DNA of 40,155 nt from positions 1 to 40,155 of IMG/VR virus record IMGVR_UViG_3300046812_000189. One strand, 5' to 3'. This DNA comes from a virus. Within the stretch, counting starts at the first letter, position 1. Each line of letters opens with the position of its first letter. The notes under the pieces were generated by a model that had not been told where the DNA came from, made no database searches, and saw only the letters and a program-made list of their open reading frames with translations. Made by a program: the position numbers and the translations under genes. This document shows positions 2,937 through 40,155 of this stretch, one piece after another.

Positions 2937-4331
2937 ATGACGAAAGCGAAACCCGCCGCCGCCGCCGACCCGGAATATCTCGTGCTGTTTCACGTCGAAG
3001 ATCCGGCCGGCCACCCGATCGCCAACGCCGCAGCCGCGAGCACGGGCGGGCCGGGGCCCTGGCAGTCGATGACGAATCCGTGCGGTGACGTGGTGAACCC
3101 CAAGGATGGCCTCGCCGGCGTCATGTTGCGCGCCGGTGACTACACCGTGACCTTCAGCGCGGCCGGCTACGTCGATCGCACGCTGCCGGTGCACATCGCG
3201 ACCGAAGGCCCGCCGATCCGCGTGGGGCTCGAGCGCGCGACCGGCGGCGGGACCGGCCCGCTCCCGCCGCGGCCGACGCGCGCCCAGGTGTGTAGCGTCC
3301 AGCACTCGCTCGCCGGCCTGACCTATCACACCAAGGAATTTGGCAACGTGCCGGCCTGGTTCTATGGCCGGCTCAACGCCGAGGACCGCGCCGCCGCGCG
3401 CGCCGCGCACCGCGCCGCCGGCGATACGCACCTCCCGATCCCCGTCACCGAGGCGTATCGCGAGAGCGGGACGCTCTGGCCCGCCGCGCTCGCCGACGGC
3501 TACGACTACACGCAGGATCTCGACACCTATCGCGCGATCGCGCACGAGACGATCGCGGACGGGTTCCTGATCGATTGCCCGCTCGGCGGCGATGGCCTCG
3601 GCGCGGGCCCGGACTACAACGATCCCGTCGGCCGGACCTACGGCTGTCAATGGCTGATGATGAATCTCGAGCGCATGATCCGCGCGCTGCAAGGCGACGG
3701 CACCGACGCGCGGCCGGACCTGACGCAATACATCTGTTTCCGCCCCGGATGGGACGCGGTGTTTTATTCGTGGGGCGATCCGACCGCGGCGCGCAGCAAG
3801 GGCGGGCTCCGCTGGCGGTGGGTGCGCTGGCGAGAGACACCCGGCGCGAAGGCGCCGGCGCCGCTCACCGCGAAGATGCTCGACGAGCAGCAGGCGCGCG
3901 TCAAGAAGTTCGGCGAGCTGTTCCGCCAGGTGCTCCCGGCCGGCTATCTCGCGATCGAGCACACGCCGGGGAATATTCCCTGCGGCGAAGGCGGCGGCGA
4001 CTACGCGCCCGGTGGGCTGATGACCACCTACGACACGATCATGGGCGAGTACAACACGTTCCACGAGGACAGCTATTGGCAGATCGCCGGACGGATGCTC
4101 GACGACTACCACCGGCCGCCGGATCAACCGCGCGGCGACGATCCGAATCCGCCGAAGTATCTCGGGCCGGACAATCCGCGCGGTCCGTACTTCTACGTCG
4201 TGTTTGAGCCGACGAAAAACGGCGTCTACGAATGGTGTCGCGGGCGCTGCACGCGCGAGGCGATGCAGCAGGAGGACGCGTACATCCGCGCGTCCGGCGC
4301 GACGCTGACCGGCTATCCGGTGATCTGGTGA
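2937..4331 (+). CDS. Putative surface-binding or glycan-active tail protein (Ig-like domain plus barrel-like domain)
   Basis: A 464-residue protein starting at ATG 2937, 10 bases after an AAAGGAG ribosome site. Residues about 13-100 look like a carboxypeptidase-regulatory-type beta-sandwich (GHPIANAAA, then AGDYTVTFSAAGYVDRTL), common in surface-binding proteins. A Pro linker (PLPPRPTR) leads to a domain of about 350 residues rich in Trp, Tyr and Asp. That domain has alternating strand and helix segments and acidic strand ends (YLAIEHTPG, YDTIMGEYN) reminiscent of a TIM-barrel glycoside hydrolase. It lies beside a collagen-like fibre. I infer a receptor-binding or depolymerase role. No catalytic pair can be assigned with certainty. 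Confidence 0.5.
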   Translation: MTKAKPAAAADPEYLVLFHVEDPAGHPIANAAAASTGGPGPWQSMTNPCGDVVNPKDGLAGVMLRAGDYTVTFSAAGYVDRTLPVHIATEGPPIRVGLERATGGGTGPLPPRPTRAQVCSVQHSLAGLTYHTKEFGNVPAWFYGRLNAEDRAAARAAHRAAGDTHLPIPVTEAYRESGTLWPAALADGYDYTQDLDTYRAIAHETIADGFLIDCPLGGDGLGAGPDYNDPVGRTYGCQWLMMNLERMIRALQGDGTDARPDLTQYICFRPGWDAVFYSWGDPTAARSKGGLRWRWVRWRETPGAKAPAPLTAKMLDEQQARVKKFGELFRQVLPAGYLAIEHTPGNIPCGEGGGDYAPGGLMTTYDTIMGEYNTFHEDSYWQIAGRMLDDYHRPPDQPRGDDPNPPKYLGPDNPRGPYFYVVFEPTKNGVYEWCRGRCTREAMQQEDAYIRASGATLTGYPVIW

Positions 4332-4539: not shown

Positions 4540-5265
4540 ATGGCGTGTACCTGTCCAACTGAACTCCCGCCGCCCAGTGCCGCCAATTTCAACGAGACGG
4601 TCTATCTCATCCTCAACTGTCCGGACCACGGCGTCGTGGTGCGGGCACCGGGTGGCACCCCTGGACCGCCTGGCGCGCAAGGCCCGCCCGGTCCCGCAGG
4701 TCCGCAAGGGCCGCAAGGCGAGGTCGGACCCGTCGGTCCAGCCGGTCCCGTGGGCGCGACGGGCGTTGATGGCGCTCCTGGTCCTGCGGGTCCGCAAGGC
4801 GCGCAGGGACCGCAGGGGCCACAAGGCCCAGCCGGTGAAGGCGGCGTCGGTGGGGGCGGCGGCACCGGTCCACAGGGGCCGCAAGGCGTGCAGGGGCCGA
4901 TGGGGCCAGCCGGACCGCCCGGACCGCCAGGACCGCAGGGCGCGGCCGGCAGCGGGGGCGGCGGCGGGGCGGGGCCACAAGGTCCGCCCGGACCGCCCGG
5001 ACCTCCGGGTCCGGCCGCTGAGGGCGGGCTGACCCGCGCCGAGGTGCAGGCGATGATCGACGAGTCGTTGCGCGACGTCCTGCACTACGGCCAGTGGGTC
5101 GCGTTGCAGGCGTGCGGCAAGACGGGGACGGGACAGATCGGGTTGTACCTGACCGCCGAGGAAGGCGGACCCACGCAGTCCTTTGAGCCGTTCGACCTCC
5201 GAGGGCGCGATGTCGTGGCGTCGTGGCAGTCGTGGAAGCTGTTGCGCGGAGAACAGGTCGACTGA
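4540..5265 (+). CDS. Collagen-like tail fibre protein
   Basis: A 241-residue protein. After a 38-residue head containing three Cys ([15 protein letters not shown]), it has a collagen region of Gly-X-Y triplets to about residue 160 ([19 protein letters not shown] type). Gly-only interruptions ([17 protein letters not shown]) break the triplets. The C-terminal 80 residues form a globular domain ([13 protein letters not shown] onward) likely to seed trimerisation or bind a target. Collagen-like repeats in phages form trimeric fibres. The gene starts at ATG 4540 and its TGA directly abuts the next ATG at 5266. Confidence 0.75.
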
Positions 5266-7028: not shown

Positions 7029-7364
7029 ATGGCACGCTCCGCACGCACGACCGCCGGCATCAACGCCGGCGCCTGGTTCGCCGCTCAGTCCTTCCACCAC
7101 TCCACCACGATCGCGACCCCGGCGACCCCGGCGACCCCGGCCGCCGCGCCGCCTGCGCTGTTCGGCGCCGACACCGCCGCGGACACGCAGTTTTATGCCG
7201 GCTTACTGCTCGAGGCCTTCGACACGCGCGAGGTGCTCGAGGCCGAGGCCGAGGATCGCGCGCTCATCGCCGACCGCGACCTCGAGCGCGAAGCCGCCTA
7301 TCGCGCCGACCGCGAGGGCGACGCCTGCGGGACGGCCTGCGGCTACTGCGGACGGTGCAGCTAA
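7029..7364 (+). CDS. Hypothetical protein with Cys-rich C-terminus
   Basis: A 111-residue protein, first gene of a short rightward operon, with AAGG/CAGG upstream of ATG 7029. The first 50 residues are low-complexity and include three TPA repeats encoded by a 9-bp tandem repeat. The middle is a charged helix (LIADRDLEREAAYRADREGD). The end is CGTACGYCGRCS, a likely metal-binding knuckle. The family is not recognised. The stop TAA overlaps the next ATG. Confidence 0.55.
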   Translation: MARSARTTAGINAGAWFAAQSFHHSTTIATPATPATPAAAPPALFGADTAADTQFYAGLLLEAFDTREVLEAEAEDRALIADRDLEREAAYRADREGDACGTACGYCGRCS

Positions 7365-7549
7365 TGCGCGCCGCGCCGCCGCTCACCCTGACCGCCGCCG
7401 AGCTCGCCGCCGTGGTGCGGGCGCTTGGCCGCGGCCGCTCGCTCGCCGCCTGCCTGCGCCGCATCGCGCAGCAGCGCGCCGCGCGCCTCCAGATCCCGCT
7501 CACGCTGGATCGCCCCTATACCCTCACCCCCACGACAAGGAACCGCTAA
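7364..7549 (+). CDS. Small hypothetical protein
   Basis: A 61-residue protein whose ATG overlaps the previous stop (TAATG). It is helical, with Ala/Arg-rich segments (LTAAELAAVVRALGRGRSLA). A ribosome site for the next gene (ACAAGGAA) lies in its last codons. No family recognised. Operon position and coupling support translation. Confidence 0.5.
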   Translation: MRAAPPLTLTAAELAAVVRALGRGRSLAACLRRIAQQRAARLQIPLTLDRPYTLTPTTRNR

Positions 7550-7551
7550 CC

Positions 7552-7968
7552 ATGACCACGAACATCAACGACTACTTTCCGAGCCGGTATCTCAAAGCGC
7601 ACGACCTCAAAGGCAAGACCCCGACCGTCACGATCGCGCGGGTGACCTTTGACCAGGTCCGCGGCGGCCGGACCGGCAGCGTCGAGACGAAGGCGATTCT
7701 GCACTTCGCCGGCAAGGACAAAGGCCTATTGCTCAACAAGACCAACGCGCGCGCCATCATCGCGATCGCCGGCACCGCGATCACCGAGCAGTGGACCGGC
7801 GTCACCGTGACCCTGTTCGCGACCGTCGACACCTTCGGCAAGGAAAAGCACGACGTGATCCGGATCAAGGCGCCGGCCGCGGTGCCCGCGCGCCGCGAAG
7901 CGGGCCCGGCGATCCTCGTCGACGCGCTCGAGATTGATCTGGCGGACGGCCAGGGACGGGCCTACTAA
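7552..7968 (+). CDS. Conserved phage protein, possible nucleic-acid-binding partner of the adjacent nuclease
   Basis: A 138-residue protein from ATG 7552, 10 bases after AAGGAA. The start NINDYFPSRYLKAHDLKGKT, the segment GKDKGLLLNKTNARAI and the later segment VTVTLFATVDTFG follow a pattern seen in many phage hypothetical proteins encoded near recombination genes. Strand-rich composition suggests an OB-like or other beta fold. Its TAA overlaps the ATG of the RecB-like nuclease, so the two are probably co-translated. A single-strand-binding or nuclease-accessory role is a guess. Confidence 0.65.
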   Translation: MTTNINDYFPSRYLKAHDLKGKTPTVTIARVTFDQVRGGRTGSVETKAILHFAGKDKGLLLNKTNARAIIAIAGTAITEQWTGVTVTLFATVDTFGKEKHDVIRIKAPAAVPARREAGPAILVDALEIDLADGQGRAY

Positions 7969-13632: not shown

Positions 13633-13677
13633 TAGTCAAACGAGTATACCAAAAATACATACCTAGTTGACGAGTGT
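13633..13677. promoter_or_regulatory. Paired operators of the repressor/Cro switch
   Basis: TAGTCAAACGAGT (13633-13645) and TAGTTGACGAGT (13664-13675) are near-direct repeats 31 bp apart, three helical turns. The second includes the -35 of the rightward promoter. The first lies over the probable leftward -10 (TATACT read on the minus strand, 13650-13645). A dimeric repressor bound to both could control both directions. Confidence 0.55.
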
Positions 13678-13702
13678 TATGTGAATGGGTATATTCCCAT
13701 TC
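13667..13702 (+). promoter_or_regulatory. Rightward promoter with palindromic -10 region
   Basis: -35 TTGACG (13667-13672), 17-bp spacer, -10 TATATT (13690-13695). The -10 is the centre of a 20-bp inverted repeat, GAATGGG-TATATT-CCCATTC (13683-13702), a likely operator. Transcription would begin near 13702 and the ATG is at 13706, so the message would be almost leaderless. The earlier ATG at 13685 lies upstream of the -10 and cannot be the start from this promoter. Confidence 0.65.
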
Positions 13703-13705
13703 ATC

Positions 13706-13972
13706 ATGAGCAAGGCTGCCAAGCATTCGGACCGGTTCGTCTTACCGCGCCCGACCTTTCCTGACCTCGCCACCTACATCCAGAAGACCGGCGATACCCA
13801 GGAACACATTGCCGGCGAGATCGGCGTCACCCAAGCGCATCTCTCGCGCATCGTGGCGGGGCGGGTTGTGCCGCGCCCGACGATCGCGCTGGCGCTCGCG
13901 ACCTACGCGAAGATTCCGCTCGAGTCGTTCACGCTGGTGTACCTGCGGAACCAGGACGACGAGGTCGCGTGA
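13706..13972 (+). CDS. Cro-like XRE-family regulator
   Basis: An 88-residue protein from ATG 13706, with a helix-turn-helix at about residues 20-70 (DTQEHIAGEIGVTQAHLSRI, then VAGRVVPRPTIALALATYA). It is the first gene of the rightward early operon and diverges from the repressor gene. It would act as the lytic-side switch protein. The start was chosen because the promoter -10 is at 13690-13695, giving a leaderless or near-leaderless message. Its stop overlaps the next ATG (TGATG). Confidence 0.75.
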   Translation: MSKAAKHSDRFVLPRPTFPDLATYIQKTGDTQEHIAGEIGVTQAHLSRIVAGRVVPRPTIALALATYAKIPLESFTLVYLRNQDDEVA

Positions 13973-14199
13973 TGCCGGACATTCGCTGCTACTTGATCCC
14001 CGAGATCCTCGCGCACCTGCAGATCTCGAAGCGCACATTCAACCGCCAGCGCAAGGCCGGCGCGCTGCCGTTCCTCGAAGAACTGCGCCCGCGGATCGGC
14101 CGGCGGCCCCGGTACCGGGCCGAGCCGATCGATCGCTATCTCACCGGCGAGTGGGGCCGGCCGTCGCTGGTCTTCGGCCGCAAGCGAGGCGGGCGGTGA
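13972..14199 (+). CDS. Excisionase/MerR-like small DNA-binding protein
   Basis: A 75-residue protein, ATG overlapping the Cro-like stop. The pattern YLIPEILAHLQISKRTFNRQ, KAGALPFLEE then RRPRYRAEPIDRYL is that of winged helix-turn-helix excisionase-type proteins (recognition helix, wing, basic strand). Coming right after the Cro-like gene, it could be the recombination directionality factor, or a further early regulator. The next gene starts within its stop codon region (GTGA). Confidence 0.65.
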   Translation: MPDIRCYLIPEILAHLQISKRTFNRQRKAGALPFLEELRPRIGRRPRYRAEPIDRYLTGEWGRPSLVFGRKRGGR

Positions 14200-14345
14200 T
14201 CCTCATGGCCGCTGCGATGGCACTCGCGGTCGCCCTGGTGGGAGTCGTCGCGGTCCTACTGATCCGCGGCGCGCAGGACCGCAGCGACCGCGTCACGAAT
14301 CAGTGGATCGATTCGCATCTTCGGGACAGGCAAGACGATGCCTGA
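14196..14345 (+). CDS. 49-residue single-helix membrane protein
   Basis: The GTG at 14196 overlaps the previous stop (GTGA); ATG 14205 is an alternative. One transmembrane helix (MAAAMALAVALVGVVAVLLI) is followed by a charged tail (RGAQDRSDRVTNQWIDSHLR). It is the last frame before the first pentameric GG array. No family recognised. An early membrane protein of exclusion or sensing type is possible. Confidence 0.5.
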   Translation: MILMAAAMALAVALVGVVAVLLIRGAQDRSDRVTNQWIDSHLRDRQDDA

Positions 14346-14390
14346 CGCCTGTGAGTGCGGTGGGCCGTGGGCGCGGTTGGCCGTCGGCCT

Positions 14391-14588
14391 GGCGTGGTCA
14401 GGCGAGCTGCGGCAAGGCGCGGCGAGCCGAGGTCGGGCGTGACTCGGTACGGCGCGGTTGGGTCGGCCGAGGCGCGGTCAGGACAGGTCTGGTGAGGGAA
14501 GGCGCGGAGTGGCCGGGTTTGGTTTGGTGTGGTTAGGTTTTGAAGGGTCGGGACAGGACAGGCCGGGTTTGGTTTGGTTCGGGCAAAC
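14391..14588. repeat. Pentameric NNNGG array 1
   Basis: For about 190 bp a GG dinucleotide recurs almost every five bases in one phase on the plus strand (about 35 of 39 positions, for example CGCGG TCAGG ACAGG TCTGG, and TTTGG TTTGG TGTGG TTAGG). The three variable bases differ from unit to unit, so this is not a copied tandem repeat. The stretch lies between the membrane gene at 14196 and the gene at 14637. A similar array stands before recT. Four units equal GG-N3-GG-N3-GG-N3-GG, a two-layer G-quadruplex pattern in the message strand. Confidence 0.8.
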
Positions 14589-14636
14589 GAAGGGCCGCGC
14601 TCAGAACGCGGCCCCAGTATCACGCGAGGACATCAC

Positions 14637-15284
14637 ATGACACCGACAGCGACCAGCGTAGCACGAAGTGACGTGATTGGCATCGGGCCGGCGGCGACCA
14701 ATGGCGGGAAGGTCGCGATCGAGTACGCGATCCCGTACACGGCTGACGTCGCCATCGTCGGCGTCGCGGATCTCCTGTTCCATCGCTGGAACGTCGAGAG
14801 CGTCGAAACGAAATCGCGCGCCGCGAAAGGATCGAAGGCGAAGAAGTCCGACGACCTCGAGAGCTATGTCTACCGCGACGAGCGGGGCGAGCTCGCGATC
14901 CCCGGCGAGTACTTGCGCCAGGCGGTGATTCATGCGGCGAAGTTTCGGCAGGACCCGCGGTCGCCGCGCAAGAGCGCGATGGATCTGTTCAAGGCCGGCG
15001 TCGTGTGCTTGACGCCGCTGGCGTCGCTCGGCGCGCCGGTGTGGGACTACGAGGATCGGCGGCGCGTGATGATTCAGCGCAACGGCATTACGCGCGTGCG
15101 GCCGGCGATGCGCGCCGGGTGGTCGGTCACGATTCAACTGCTGGTGAACCTGCCCGAATACATTCCGCCCGACGCGTTGCAGGACGTGATCGTGAATGCG
15201 GGGCGGCTGATTGGGCTGGCGGATTTTCGGCCGACCTATGGGCGCTTCGCCGTGCAGAGTTTCGGGATCGCGCTGCCGGAGTGA
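14637..15284 (+). CDS. Unknown phage protein between the two GG arrays, upstream of recT
   Basis: A 215-residue protein, ATG 14637, with GAGGA 6 bases upstream. Features: ADLLFHRWNVESVETKSR, a Lys-rich linker (GSKAKKSDDLESYVYRDE), GELAIPGEYLRQAVIHAAKF, and a Gly-containing C-terminal loop (GLADFRPTYGRFAVQSFGIA). I have an impression of similar unnamed phage proteins near recombinases, with a pattern loosely like RAMP/Cas7-type RNA-binding folds, but cannot assign a family. Both flanks are pentameric GG arrays. A single-strand nucleic-acid-binding role beside RecT would fit the context. That is inference. Confidence 0.7.
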   Translation: MTPTATSVARSDVIGIGPAATNGGKVAIEYAIPYTADVAIVGVADLLFHRWNVESVETKSRAAKGSKAKKSDDLESYVYRDERGELAIPGEYLRQAVIHAAKFRQDPRSPRKSAMDLFKAGVVCLTPLASLGAPVWDYEDRRRVMIQRNGITRVRPAMRAGWSVTIQLLVNLPEYIPPDALQDVIVNAGRLIGLADFRPTYGRFAVQSFGIALPE

Positions 15285-15292
15285 TCAGGCGG

Positions 15293-15535
15293 GGCATGGC
15301 AGGCGCAGGTACGGTTCGGCGCGGTCCGGCGCTGGCAGGGCGGCGGCGGGGCCGGGACGGGTTTGGTTAGGTGAGGTCCGGCGAGGCGAGAGGTGGACTG
15401 GCACGCTCTGGCGAGGCGAGGCCGGGCGAGTTCTGGCCTGGTTCGGCATTGGTCGGGATTGGTGGGGCGGTGCAGGGCGGCGGTCGGGCGTGGTGCGGCA
15501 AGGTCGGGCCCGGCAGGGTCTGCTAAGGCGAGGCT
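15293..15535. repeat. Pentameric NNNGG array 2, directly upstream of recT
   Basis: The second array fills the 254-base gap before ATG 15539. GG recurs every five bases in runs (15298-15328, 15355-15385, 15395-15445, 15482-15532) whose phase shifts between runs. Examples: TACGG TTCGG CGCGG TCCGG, and TTTGG TTAGG TGAGG TCCGG. Fill-in bases vary as in array 1. The G-rich strand is the message strand. No Shine-Dalgarno other than AAGG/GAGG in the array itself precedes recT, so the array is also its leader. Confidence 0.8.
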
Positions 15536-15538
15536 TCC

Positions 15539-16414
15539 ATGAATGAGCAGTCTGCGCGACCGGGGATGACGATGGCTGAGACCCCTGAGAGGGCTGAGAG
15601 GGCTGAGACCTCTGAGCGGCCTGAGACCCCGACGACCGCCTTGCAGCCGGCCGCGCCGGCGTCGAAGACGCCCGCGCGCATCGGCGTCGCGCCGACCACG
15701 CTCGACGAGGGCTGGCGCCTGGCGCAGATGATGGCGAAGTCGGACCTCGTCCCGAAATCCTTCCGCGGCCACCCGGAGGACGTGCTCGTCGCCATTCAGC
15801 TCGGCACCGAGATCGGCTTTGCGCCGATGCAGGCGCTCCAGAGCGTGGCGGTGATCAACGGACGCCCGTCGGTCTGGGGCGACGGCTTCCTGGCCCTGAT
15901 CATGGGCTCGGCGCTCTACCGCGACCACGACGAGTACTACGAGGTGGACGGGCTGCGCGCGGACGGTCTGAACGCCGAGGCGTTGAAGAAAGACACCACC
16001 GCGGCGGTCTGCACGTTCTGGCGGAAGGGCAAACCGGAACCGGTCACGCGGCGCTTCACGGTGGGGCAGGCGAAGAAGGCGCAACTCTTCGACAAGCGCG
16101 ACACGCCGTGGATCACGTACCCGGATCGGATGCTGCTGATGCGCGCGCGGTCCTGGGCGGGCCGCGACTGTTTCCCGGATCTCCTCCGCGGCATCCGCAC
16201 CGCCGAGGAAGCGCTCGACGAGCGCGAGATCGTGGACGTGCCGCTCGTGCGCGAGGTCAAGCGCGTGTCCGAGACACGCGAGGGCTCAGACCCGCGTGTC
16301 GGAACCGGGGGCGAGAGAGTGGAGCCGCCCCCTGCGGTTGCCGAGCGCGTCGACGAGACGACCGGCGAAGTCTTGCCGCTCACCGCGGCCGACATCCCCT
16401 TCGGTGGCCGATGA
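15539..16414 (+). CDS. recT: RecT-family single-strand annealing recombinase
   Basis: A 291-residue protein. The first 50 residues are a low-complexity Glu/Thr/Pro region. The RecT core follows: LAQMMAKSDLVPKSF, HPEDVLVAIQLGTEIGFAPM, QALQSVAVINGRPSVWGD, then RRFTVGQAKKAQL and YPDRMLLMRARSWAGRD. The tail ends with DIPFGGR, an acidic/Pro C-terminus of the kind that may bind partners. RecT anneals complementary single strands during phage recombination. A RecB-like nuclease (17045) four genes downstream could supply the resected ends. ATG 15539 follows the GG array directly. Confidence 0.85.
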   Translation: MNEQSARPGMTMAETPERAERAETSERPETPTTALQPAAPASKTPARIGVAPTTLDEGWRLAQMMAKSDLVPKSFRGHPEDVLVAIQLGTEIGFAPMQALQSVAVINGRPSVWGDGFLALIMGSALYRDHDEYYEVDGLRADGLNAEALKKDTTAAVCTFWRKGKPEPVTRRFTVGQAKKAQLFDKRDTPWITYPDRMLLMRARSWAGRDCFPDLLRGIRTAEEALDEREIVDVPLVREVKRVSETREGSDPRVGTGGERVEPPPAVAERVDETTGEVLPLTAADIPFGGR

Positions 16415-39344: not shown

Positions 39345-40155
39345 CCGGGGTCAGTCAGATCCTCGCGCAGCTCGCCGAGAACGCCGGCAAGGCGCGGCTC
39401 GTCCAAGGGCAGATTTACGGGAACGCCGTCGCCGCGGCCTCGCAGGTGCCGGCGCAGATTCTCGACGATCAGGAGCGCCAGCAGCAGATCGACTTTCAAC
39501 GCGCGCGCGACGTGCAGCAGATGGGCCTCGCGCTCCGCGCCGATCAGCGCGCGACCGCGGATCAGGCGTATCAGGATCAGGCGCGCGCGACACAGGTCGC
39601 GCACGATCAGGCCGTCCGCGCCGGCCTCACGGCGGCGATGGGCCCCGATGGCGATCCGACGGTGTTCGACGCCGGCAAGGCCTGGCGCGCGGTGTCCGCG
39701 CTCGGCCGCCCGGACGCCATGACCGACGTGATCAACATCCACCAGGCGATCCGCGGCAAACCGCTCTTTAAGAAACAGGACGAGACGGGCGTCGACCCGA
39801 ATACCTACGCGCCGATCCCTGGCCTCGAGGCGACACCGAAGATCCCCGAGATGGGCACGCCGGGGTACGAGATTTATCTCCGCTCGCTCGCCAACCAACC
39901 CGCGGCCGCGCCGGGCGCGCCGGCCTCGAGCGCCGCGCCGCCCGTCGGCGTGCCCACCTACGCCGGCCGCGCCGATCTGTTACAGCACGGCCCGCCGCCG
40001 TCGCCGGTGCCGGCCGGCGGCCCTGGCGCGCCGTCGACCGTGACGCCACCCGCCGCGCCCGCGCCGGCGCTCGCCGCCCCGGCCGCCGTGTCGGCCTTTG
40101 ACGCCGGCGGCGGCGGCACGTTCGCCGGCCCGACGACCTACGGCCCGGCGCCGGC
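39341..40155 (+). CDS. Internal virion protein, 5' part of gene crossing the join
   Basis: ATG 39341 overlaps the previous stop. The frame is open to the window end and continues at base 1 of the window through the 140-bp overlap, giving one 591-residue protein ending at 1101. The N-terminal 110 residues are a long helical region (AENAGKARLVQGQIYGNAVA, then QQQIDFQRARDVQQMGLALR). A Pro/Ala linker follows. It is the third of the ejection-type genes. The role is inferred from context and composition. Confidence 0.72.
   Translation, partial: MTGVSQILAQLAENAGKARLVQGQIYGNAVAAASQVPAQILDDQERQQQIDFQRARDVQQMGLALRADQRATADQAYQDQARATQVAHDQAVRAGLTAAMGPDGDPTVFDAGKAWRAVSALGRPDAMTDVINIHQAIRGKPLFKKQDETGVDPNTYAPIPGLEATPKIPEMGTPGYEIYLRSLANQPAAAPGAPASSAAPPVGVPTYAGRADLLQHGPPPSPVPAGGPGAPSTVTPPAAPAPALAAPAAVSAFDAGGGGTFAGPTTYGPAP
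40016..40155. repeat. Terminal direct overlap, right copy
   Basis: Identical to bases 1-140 except at 40142 (G here, C at 127). It marks closure of a 40,015-bp circle, or the redundant ends of a permuted genome. The single difference lies in a Pro/Ala-rich linker codon. Confidence 0.93.

Follow-up and report, generated by a model that had tools for sequence, protein, structure and literature searches.

Organization of the locus

The window, by which we mean the whole stretch of DNA analysed, comprises all 40,155 nucleotides of the IMG/VR virus record IMGVR_UViG_3300046812_000189. The two ends of this record (1-140 and 40016-40155) repeat each other in 139 of 140 bases, which suggests a complete genome that is either circularly permuted or terminally redundant. 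The features of interest are collected in Table 1. Two arrays of short GG-containing units flank a single gene, listed as unknown in the first-pass annotation of this DNA, and lead into recT; the genes near the arrays encode HTH proteins, RecT, an HNH protein and an exonuclease. An annealase gene also lies downstream of array 2 in several close relatives. The nearest relative (L039) differs by 1 base in 3374 and is therefore without value as an evolutionary test. Array 2 ends 2 nt before the start codon of recT, and judging from this position the last units of block c may act as its ribosome-binding site.

Table 1. Positions of the array-bearing operon and its features in the window (vrRNA, VIPR RNA)
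Feature	Position	Strand	Remarks
Sigma-70-like promoter match	13667..13695	+	TTGACG-17-TATATT; ahead of the operon; consensus match only
HTH (Cro/C1-type) regulator	13685..13972	+	First gene of the operon
Second HTH / excisionase-like gene	13969..14199	+
Own homologue of the targeted gene	14196..14345	+	Small single-pass membrane protein, 49 aa; 5/16 guide match
Array 1	14386..14585	+	40 in-phase GGYNN units, 35 with GG; putative vrRNA array upstream of vipr
Guide, units 2-17 of array 1	14391..14470	+	16 units; 14-15/16 dinucleotides present in related phages, 1-nt skip
Stem-loop GGGCCGCG-ctcagaa-CGCGGCCC	14592..14614	+	Directly after array 1; candidate vrRNA 3' tail
vipr	14637..15284	+	215 aa; RAMP homologue of SUSP1 Vipr
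Array 2 block a	15288..15332	+	9 units, 8 with GG; target not found
Array 2 block b	15345..15449	+	21 units, 18 with GG; phase shifted; target not found
Array 2 block c	15482..15536	+	11 units, 10 with GG; phase shifted again
recT	15539..16414	+	RecT-like annealing protein; next gene after array 2

The recurrence of GG at every fifth base, which the first-pass annotation had put far beyond composition, proved to be real when compared with shuffled sequence. Array 1 has 35 in-phase GG dinucleotides and a best run score of 30; 1000 shuffles of the stretch that preserved its dinucleotides did not exceed 18 and 9, respectively. For array 2 the best run score was 15 (shuffle maximum 9), with 35 GG pairs at lag 5 where 15.4 were expected; in 20 shuffles of the whole window the best run was 5. 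No lag-5 GG run comparable to the arrays was found on either strand of the rest of the window. A period-9 GG pattern at 4540-5265 (24/24), which takes in the period-9 stretch at 4654-5009, belongs to the gene of a collagen-like Gly-X-Y tail-fibre protein and is unrelated to the arrays.

The view that the period itself is under selection is likewise upheld, as are the flanking arrangement and the expectation of similar tracts in other phages (see below). That the three bases between successive GGs vary freely holds for the last two only: 63 of the 71 units with GG continue with a pyrimidine (C or T), and the repeat unit is therefore GGYNN. Nor is array 2 the single phase-locked tract that it had been taken for, as it consists of three blocks, starting at 15288, 15345 and 15482, in different phases. 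Over both arrays, GG is missing from 10 of 81 units. A protein-coding origin of the period was rejected, with stops in all three forward frames of array 1 and stops that follow composition across loci.

Identification of the protein between the arrays

VIPR is a phage-encoded, CRISPR-related system with the RAMP protein Vipr, reported in a 2026 preprint (PMC13142463; bioRxiv 2026.04.26.720920) that supersedes the earlier statement that arrays of this kind have no established function. Its RNAs, the vrRNAs, alternate GGY and NN and are encoded in arrays that flank vipr; the NN pairs read DNA with one skipped base, which is usually the wobble base of a codon (PMC13142463). Seven VIPR types (I-VII) are distinguished, and Vipr is described with a glycine-rich loop and a thumb domain (PMC13142463). 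The reported vrRNAs have 9-16 repeat units and are separate molecules of about 100 nt with a conserved structured 3' tail, staggered arrays with overlapping vrRNAs are mentioned as well, and a vap accessory gene beside vipr is typical, though not universal (PMC13142463). The account of vrRNA transcription, RNP assembly and repression used here comes from experiments with SUSP1 (PMC13142463). In the phiSUSP1 record, GGTNN units were found upstream of its vipr homologue.

From profile comparison and structural modelling, the 215-aa protein encoded between the arrays of the window is identified as a Vipr, a RAMP of the Csm3/Cas7 type. A profile of 53 of its relatives matches PDB 36pp, "SUSP1 Vipr protein", with E=2.5e-30, and hhalign against the phiSUSP1 gene gave a probability of 99.6 and E=3e-24, with 28% identity in the profile alignment; by tblastn the similarity to phiSUSP1 is weak (E=3e-3). 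The AlphaFold model of the protein has a pLDDT of 90.2, and the best PDB folds found for it by Foldseek are Csm3/Cas7 proteins from type III and type VII systems (E=1.5e-7). The C-terminal glycine-rich region is conserved (G189, G193, D196, R198, P199, G202, R203). The gene is intact and similar to those of its relatives. Vipr had no match in Pfam, and PADLOC returned none for the 53 Viprs.

Association of GGYNN arrays with Vipr

Querying IMG/VR with a pattern of twelve GGNNN units returned at least 120 stretches, which makes such arrays common in uncultivated phages and VIPR loci findable by a simple sequence pattern. Most of the stretches are degenerate GGYNN arrays that lie between genes of the same strand, in genomes of 39-73% G+C. 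The variable dinucleotides of 378 distinct arrays resemble codon positions 1 and 2, the commonest being AA, GA, GC, AT and GT. A Vipr HMM, built solely from Viprs found by homology and then iterated, was run on the loci picked by DNA pattern only; of the loci that bear degenerate GGYNN arrays, 79 of 104 encode a Vipr, which is on the same strand in 78 cases and lies a median of 14 nt away, and of the loci that lack such arrays, 1 of 16 does. Among the close relatives of the window's Vipr (n=60, window included), an upstream array was recorded in 36 and a downstream array in 40 by a strict criterion, and their in-phase arrays reach 80 units. At the other 25 loci with degenerate GGYNN arrays (such as L030, L035, L055, L076 and L127) no Vipr was recognised nearby; they may belong to Vipr types that are more remote, lie at the edge of a contig or stand alone.

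The hairpin that follows array 1 is found in 9 aligned sequences and kept in the closest relatives. Covariation is limited, with a compensatory change in L140 only, and the folding z-score of the hairpin in the window (-0.43) is unremarkable. The hairpin may be the vrRNA tail. No tail structure was recognised after array 2, and a search of Rfam gave nothing above the gathering score. The 40 in-phase units of array 1 run on without a recognisable internal tail, and the target match described below spans exactly 16 of them. The motif GGCCGGGTTTGGTTTGGT occurs twice in array 1, at 14511 and 14556 (45-50 nt apart), and GGGTTTGGTTTGG also precedes the tail hairpin in L133, L134 and L136, which makes it a possible component of a conserved vrRNA 3' end.

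A guide with a natural target in related phages

Starting from unit 2, the dinucleotides of array 1 read GT CA GA GC AA GC GA GA CG GT TC AC GC TG CG GA, which with a skip of 1 nt after each pair decodes to V Q/H D/E A K/N A D/E D/E R V S T A W/C R D/E. A gapped query of nine units against 2.9 million viral contigs hit five places. Four of these, on three contigs, continue to match beyond the query up to 15 of 16 units and then stop at both ends; the fifth did not extend and was dismissed as chance. The contigs with extended matches are from relatives of this phage, with a RecT that is 88% identical. Two additional contigs were found by homology searches blind to the array: G004, found by RecT, matches 14 of the 16 guide units and G013, found by Vipr, matches 15. 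An exact gapped query of ten units against the whole of IMG/VR matched G004 and G013 only. The related phage contigs that match the guide thus total five (G001-G004 and G013).

Every skipped base of the target match falls at a codon wobble position, and each guide unit is present in at least one natural target allele. Between L205 and L207, the target alleles show 7 differences at skipped bases and none at read bases. This is a concrete and convincing natural target, with alleles that vary at skipped wobble positions alone. As read from the sequence, the product of the target gene has about 50 aa and one predicted-looking membrane segment. In L205 and L209, recT lies downstream of the target gene and other genes occupy the slot between the two; in G013 the gene is preceded by an HTH-like ORF and followed by one that was judged by eye to be annealase-like. 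No Vipr was found in the available sequence of G001-G004.

The homologue of the target gene in the window itself lies immediately upstream of array 1. Since only 5 of 16 units match the guide, this own allele is diverged and hence predicted to be spared. The best other match of the guide in the window (10/16, 7233-7280) is in frame in the ORF at 7195-7968, and is probably due to chance, given coding composition; the next best reaches 7/16.

Skip-1 reading was also compared with other readings in a target scan of 379 arrays over 4.5 million positions and both strands, at loci not chosen by target pattern. Alignments of at least 10 of 12 units numbered 15 for skip 1 against 2 for reversed unit order, and 0, 3 and 3 for skips of 0, 2 and 3; the 15 include repeated records of the same place. 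Also among them is an array of L145 (Vipr 87% identical), which matches G004 (L238, minus strand near 96) in 10 of 12 units; this target is antisense, in the wobble frame of a 119-aa ORF of G004, a phage also targeted by the window's guide. Arrays of L154 aimed at vipr of other phages likewise belong to the 15; a perfect array of 61 units there (3119-3420) carries guides that match vipr of L146, L107 and L156 in the wobble frame, and would be a VIPR directed against the VIPR of other phages.

For array 2 and the second half of array 1, gapped pattern searches found no targets: the queries, built on block b of array 2 and on units of that second half, gave 39 matches, none of which extended and which are taken as chance, and the array 2 pattern did not occur in 14 related records with up to 3 mismatches allowed. 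A tblastn search of the decoded peptides against named phages gave no match.

Alternative explanations

The first-pass annotation had considered the arrays as a target for RecT or nucleases, and a DNA-level signal of this sort, bound by a protein or acting by its structure at a recombination hotspot, would account for array 2 abutting recT and for the annealase genes that follow the array in several close relatives. As the arrays track Vipr across phages selected by pattern, as their NN positions hold decodable target sequence and as the best-matched guide is directed at other phages and not at the phage's own DNA, this explanation is unsupported and, in our estimate, extremely improbable. We attach next to no probability to a G-quadruplex leader RNA that controls the translation of vipr and recT. 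Two-layer quadruplexes are permitted by GG at each fifth base, but neither the pyrimidine after GG nor a strict 5-nt phase across 40 units is needed for them, and the target matches with their wobble-skipped positions would be left unexplained. For translation control by quadruplexes, as for the strand-asymmetric replication signal that had also been proposed, the evidence points elsewhere, namely to the co-occurrence with Vipr and to dinucleotides that can be decoded.

The arrays could also be a degenerate pentanucleotide microsatellite without guide function, or a decayed VIPR array in which one guide is left as a relic. The loss of GG from ten units, the splitting of array 2 into three phases and the finding of a target for one segment only are all in keeping with decay, whereas an intact vipr close to its relatives and a guide that matches phages of present-day metagenomes in 14-15 of 16 units argue against it; we consider this explanation improbable.

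Comparison with known systems

The closest described counterpart is the type II VIPR of Escherichia phage SUSP1 (PMC13142463; PDB 36pp), with which the window shares a Vipr homologue at 28% identity, GGY/NN arrays on the same strand both upstream and downstream of vipr, a 1-nt-skip reading with the skip at the wobble position, and targets in competing mobile elements. Unlike SUSP1, the window has no recognisable vap1 after vipr: no homologue of SUSP1 vap1 was found in the window, and no conserved neighbour of unknown function beside vipr in this clade. Whereas SUSP1 makes separate vrRNAs of about 100 nt, array 1 has 40 units without a visible break, and its candidate tail, read at hairpin level, is a simple hairpin. 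The system of the window resides in a recT operon and targets sister phages; that of SUSP1 targets satellites. The VIPR clade of P. fulva prophages (PMC13142463) is likewise prophage-borne, with guides against early or regulatory loci of related prophages. The targets there are mainly lysogeny-lysis regulators, whereas the target found here is a small membrane-protein gene between the regulators and the annealase gene.

Class 1 CRISPR effectors have the same fold as the Vipr model (Csm3/Cas7 of types III-A and VII, Foldseek E down to 1.5e-7). Csm3/Cas7 is an oligomeric RAMP protein, and the guide-target duplex of these effectors has periodic unpaired bases. In contrast to class 1 systems, neither CRISPR repeats nor genes for adaptation or nuclease subunits were recognised at the locus, and the guide is repeated in pentamers and read noncontiguously. 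An assignment of the locus to class 1 CRISPR-Cas was rejected on the absence of CRISPR repeats, on the PADLOC result and on the neighbouring genes (HTH, recT, HNH and exonuclease).

A model of repression between sister phages

The arrays, the homology and fold of Vipr, the target matches and the mismatch to the own gene are established for this locus, which is very probably a VIPR system in the early recombination operon of a temperate phage, with a guide against sister phages and the own copy spared. By analogy with the experiments on SUSP1 (PMC13142463), the arrays would be transcribed into vrRNAs and assembled into an RNP in which Vipr, as a Cas7-like RAMP, coats the vrRNA with its subunits gripping the GGY triplets. 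The NN dinucleotides would then read double-stranded DNA with one base skipped per unit and, as in SUSP1, bind the template strand, here in the early operon of a sister phage. With the guide at 14391-14470, binding would take place in the small membrane-protein gene upstream of the annealase gene and block transcription of the early recombination/replication operon in a co-infecting or resident sister phage. The role of the system is thus most likely the repression of the early recombination operon in competing sister phages.

A more specific proposal for the whole clade is made tentatively, at somewhat less than an even chance. VIPR would here be a self-sparing exclusion module in a swap slot, with a small early gene on one side and the annealase gene on the other. 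It would have a guide directed at the alleles of this small gene in sister phages, its own allele having diverged at the read positions; single guides would be excised from uninterrupted arrays of 40-80 units that lack separate tails, or be read inside them, and no dedicated vap gene would be involved.

The class of system as such is known since the report of 2026. New in detail is the targeting of sister phages with a spared self allele in a recT operon, along with the natural target, the self-sparing, the uninterrupted array of 40 units, the lack of a recognisable vap gene and the placement in the recT operon. The repeat code and the 1-nt-skip rule of VIPR are supported here by a fresh route, which started from an oddity in raw sequence and used data independent of the preprint. 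The locus also suggests a way for a phage to direct an RNA-guided repressor against closely related phages while missing itself. As to the hosts of this phage clade, a hint comes from three relatives of Vipr (L217, L218 and L219) that lie in MAG contigs of Phycisphaerae and Eremiobacterota.
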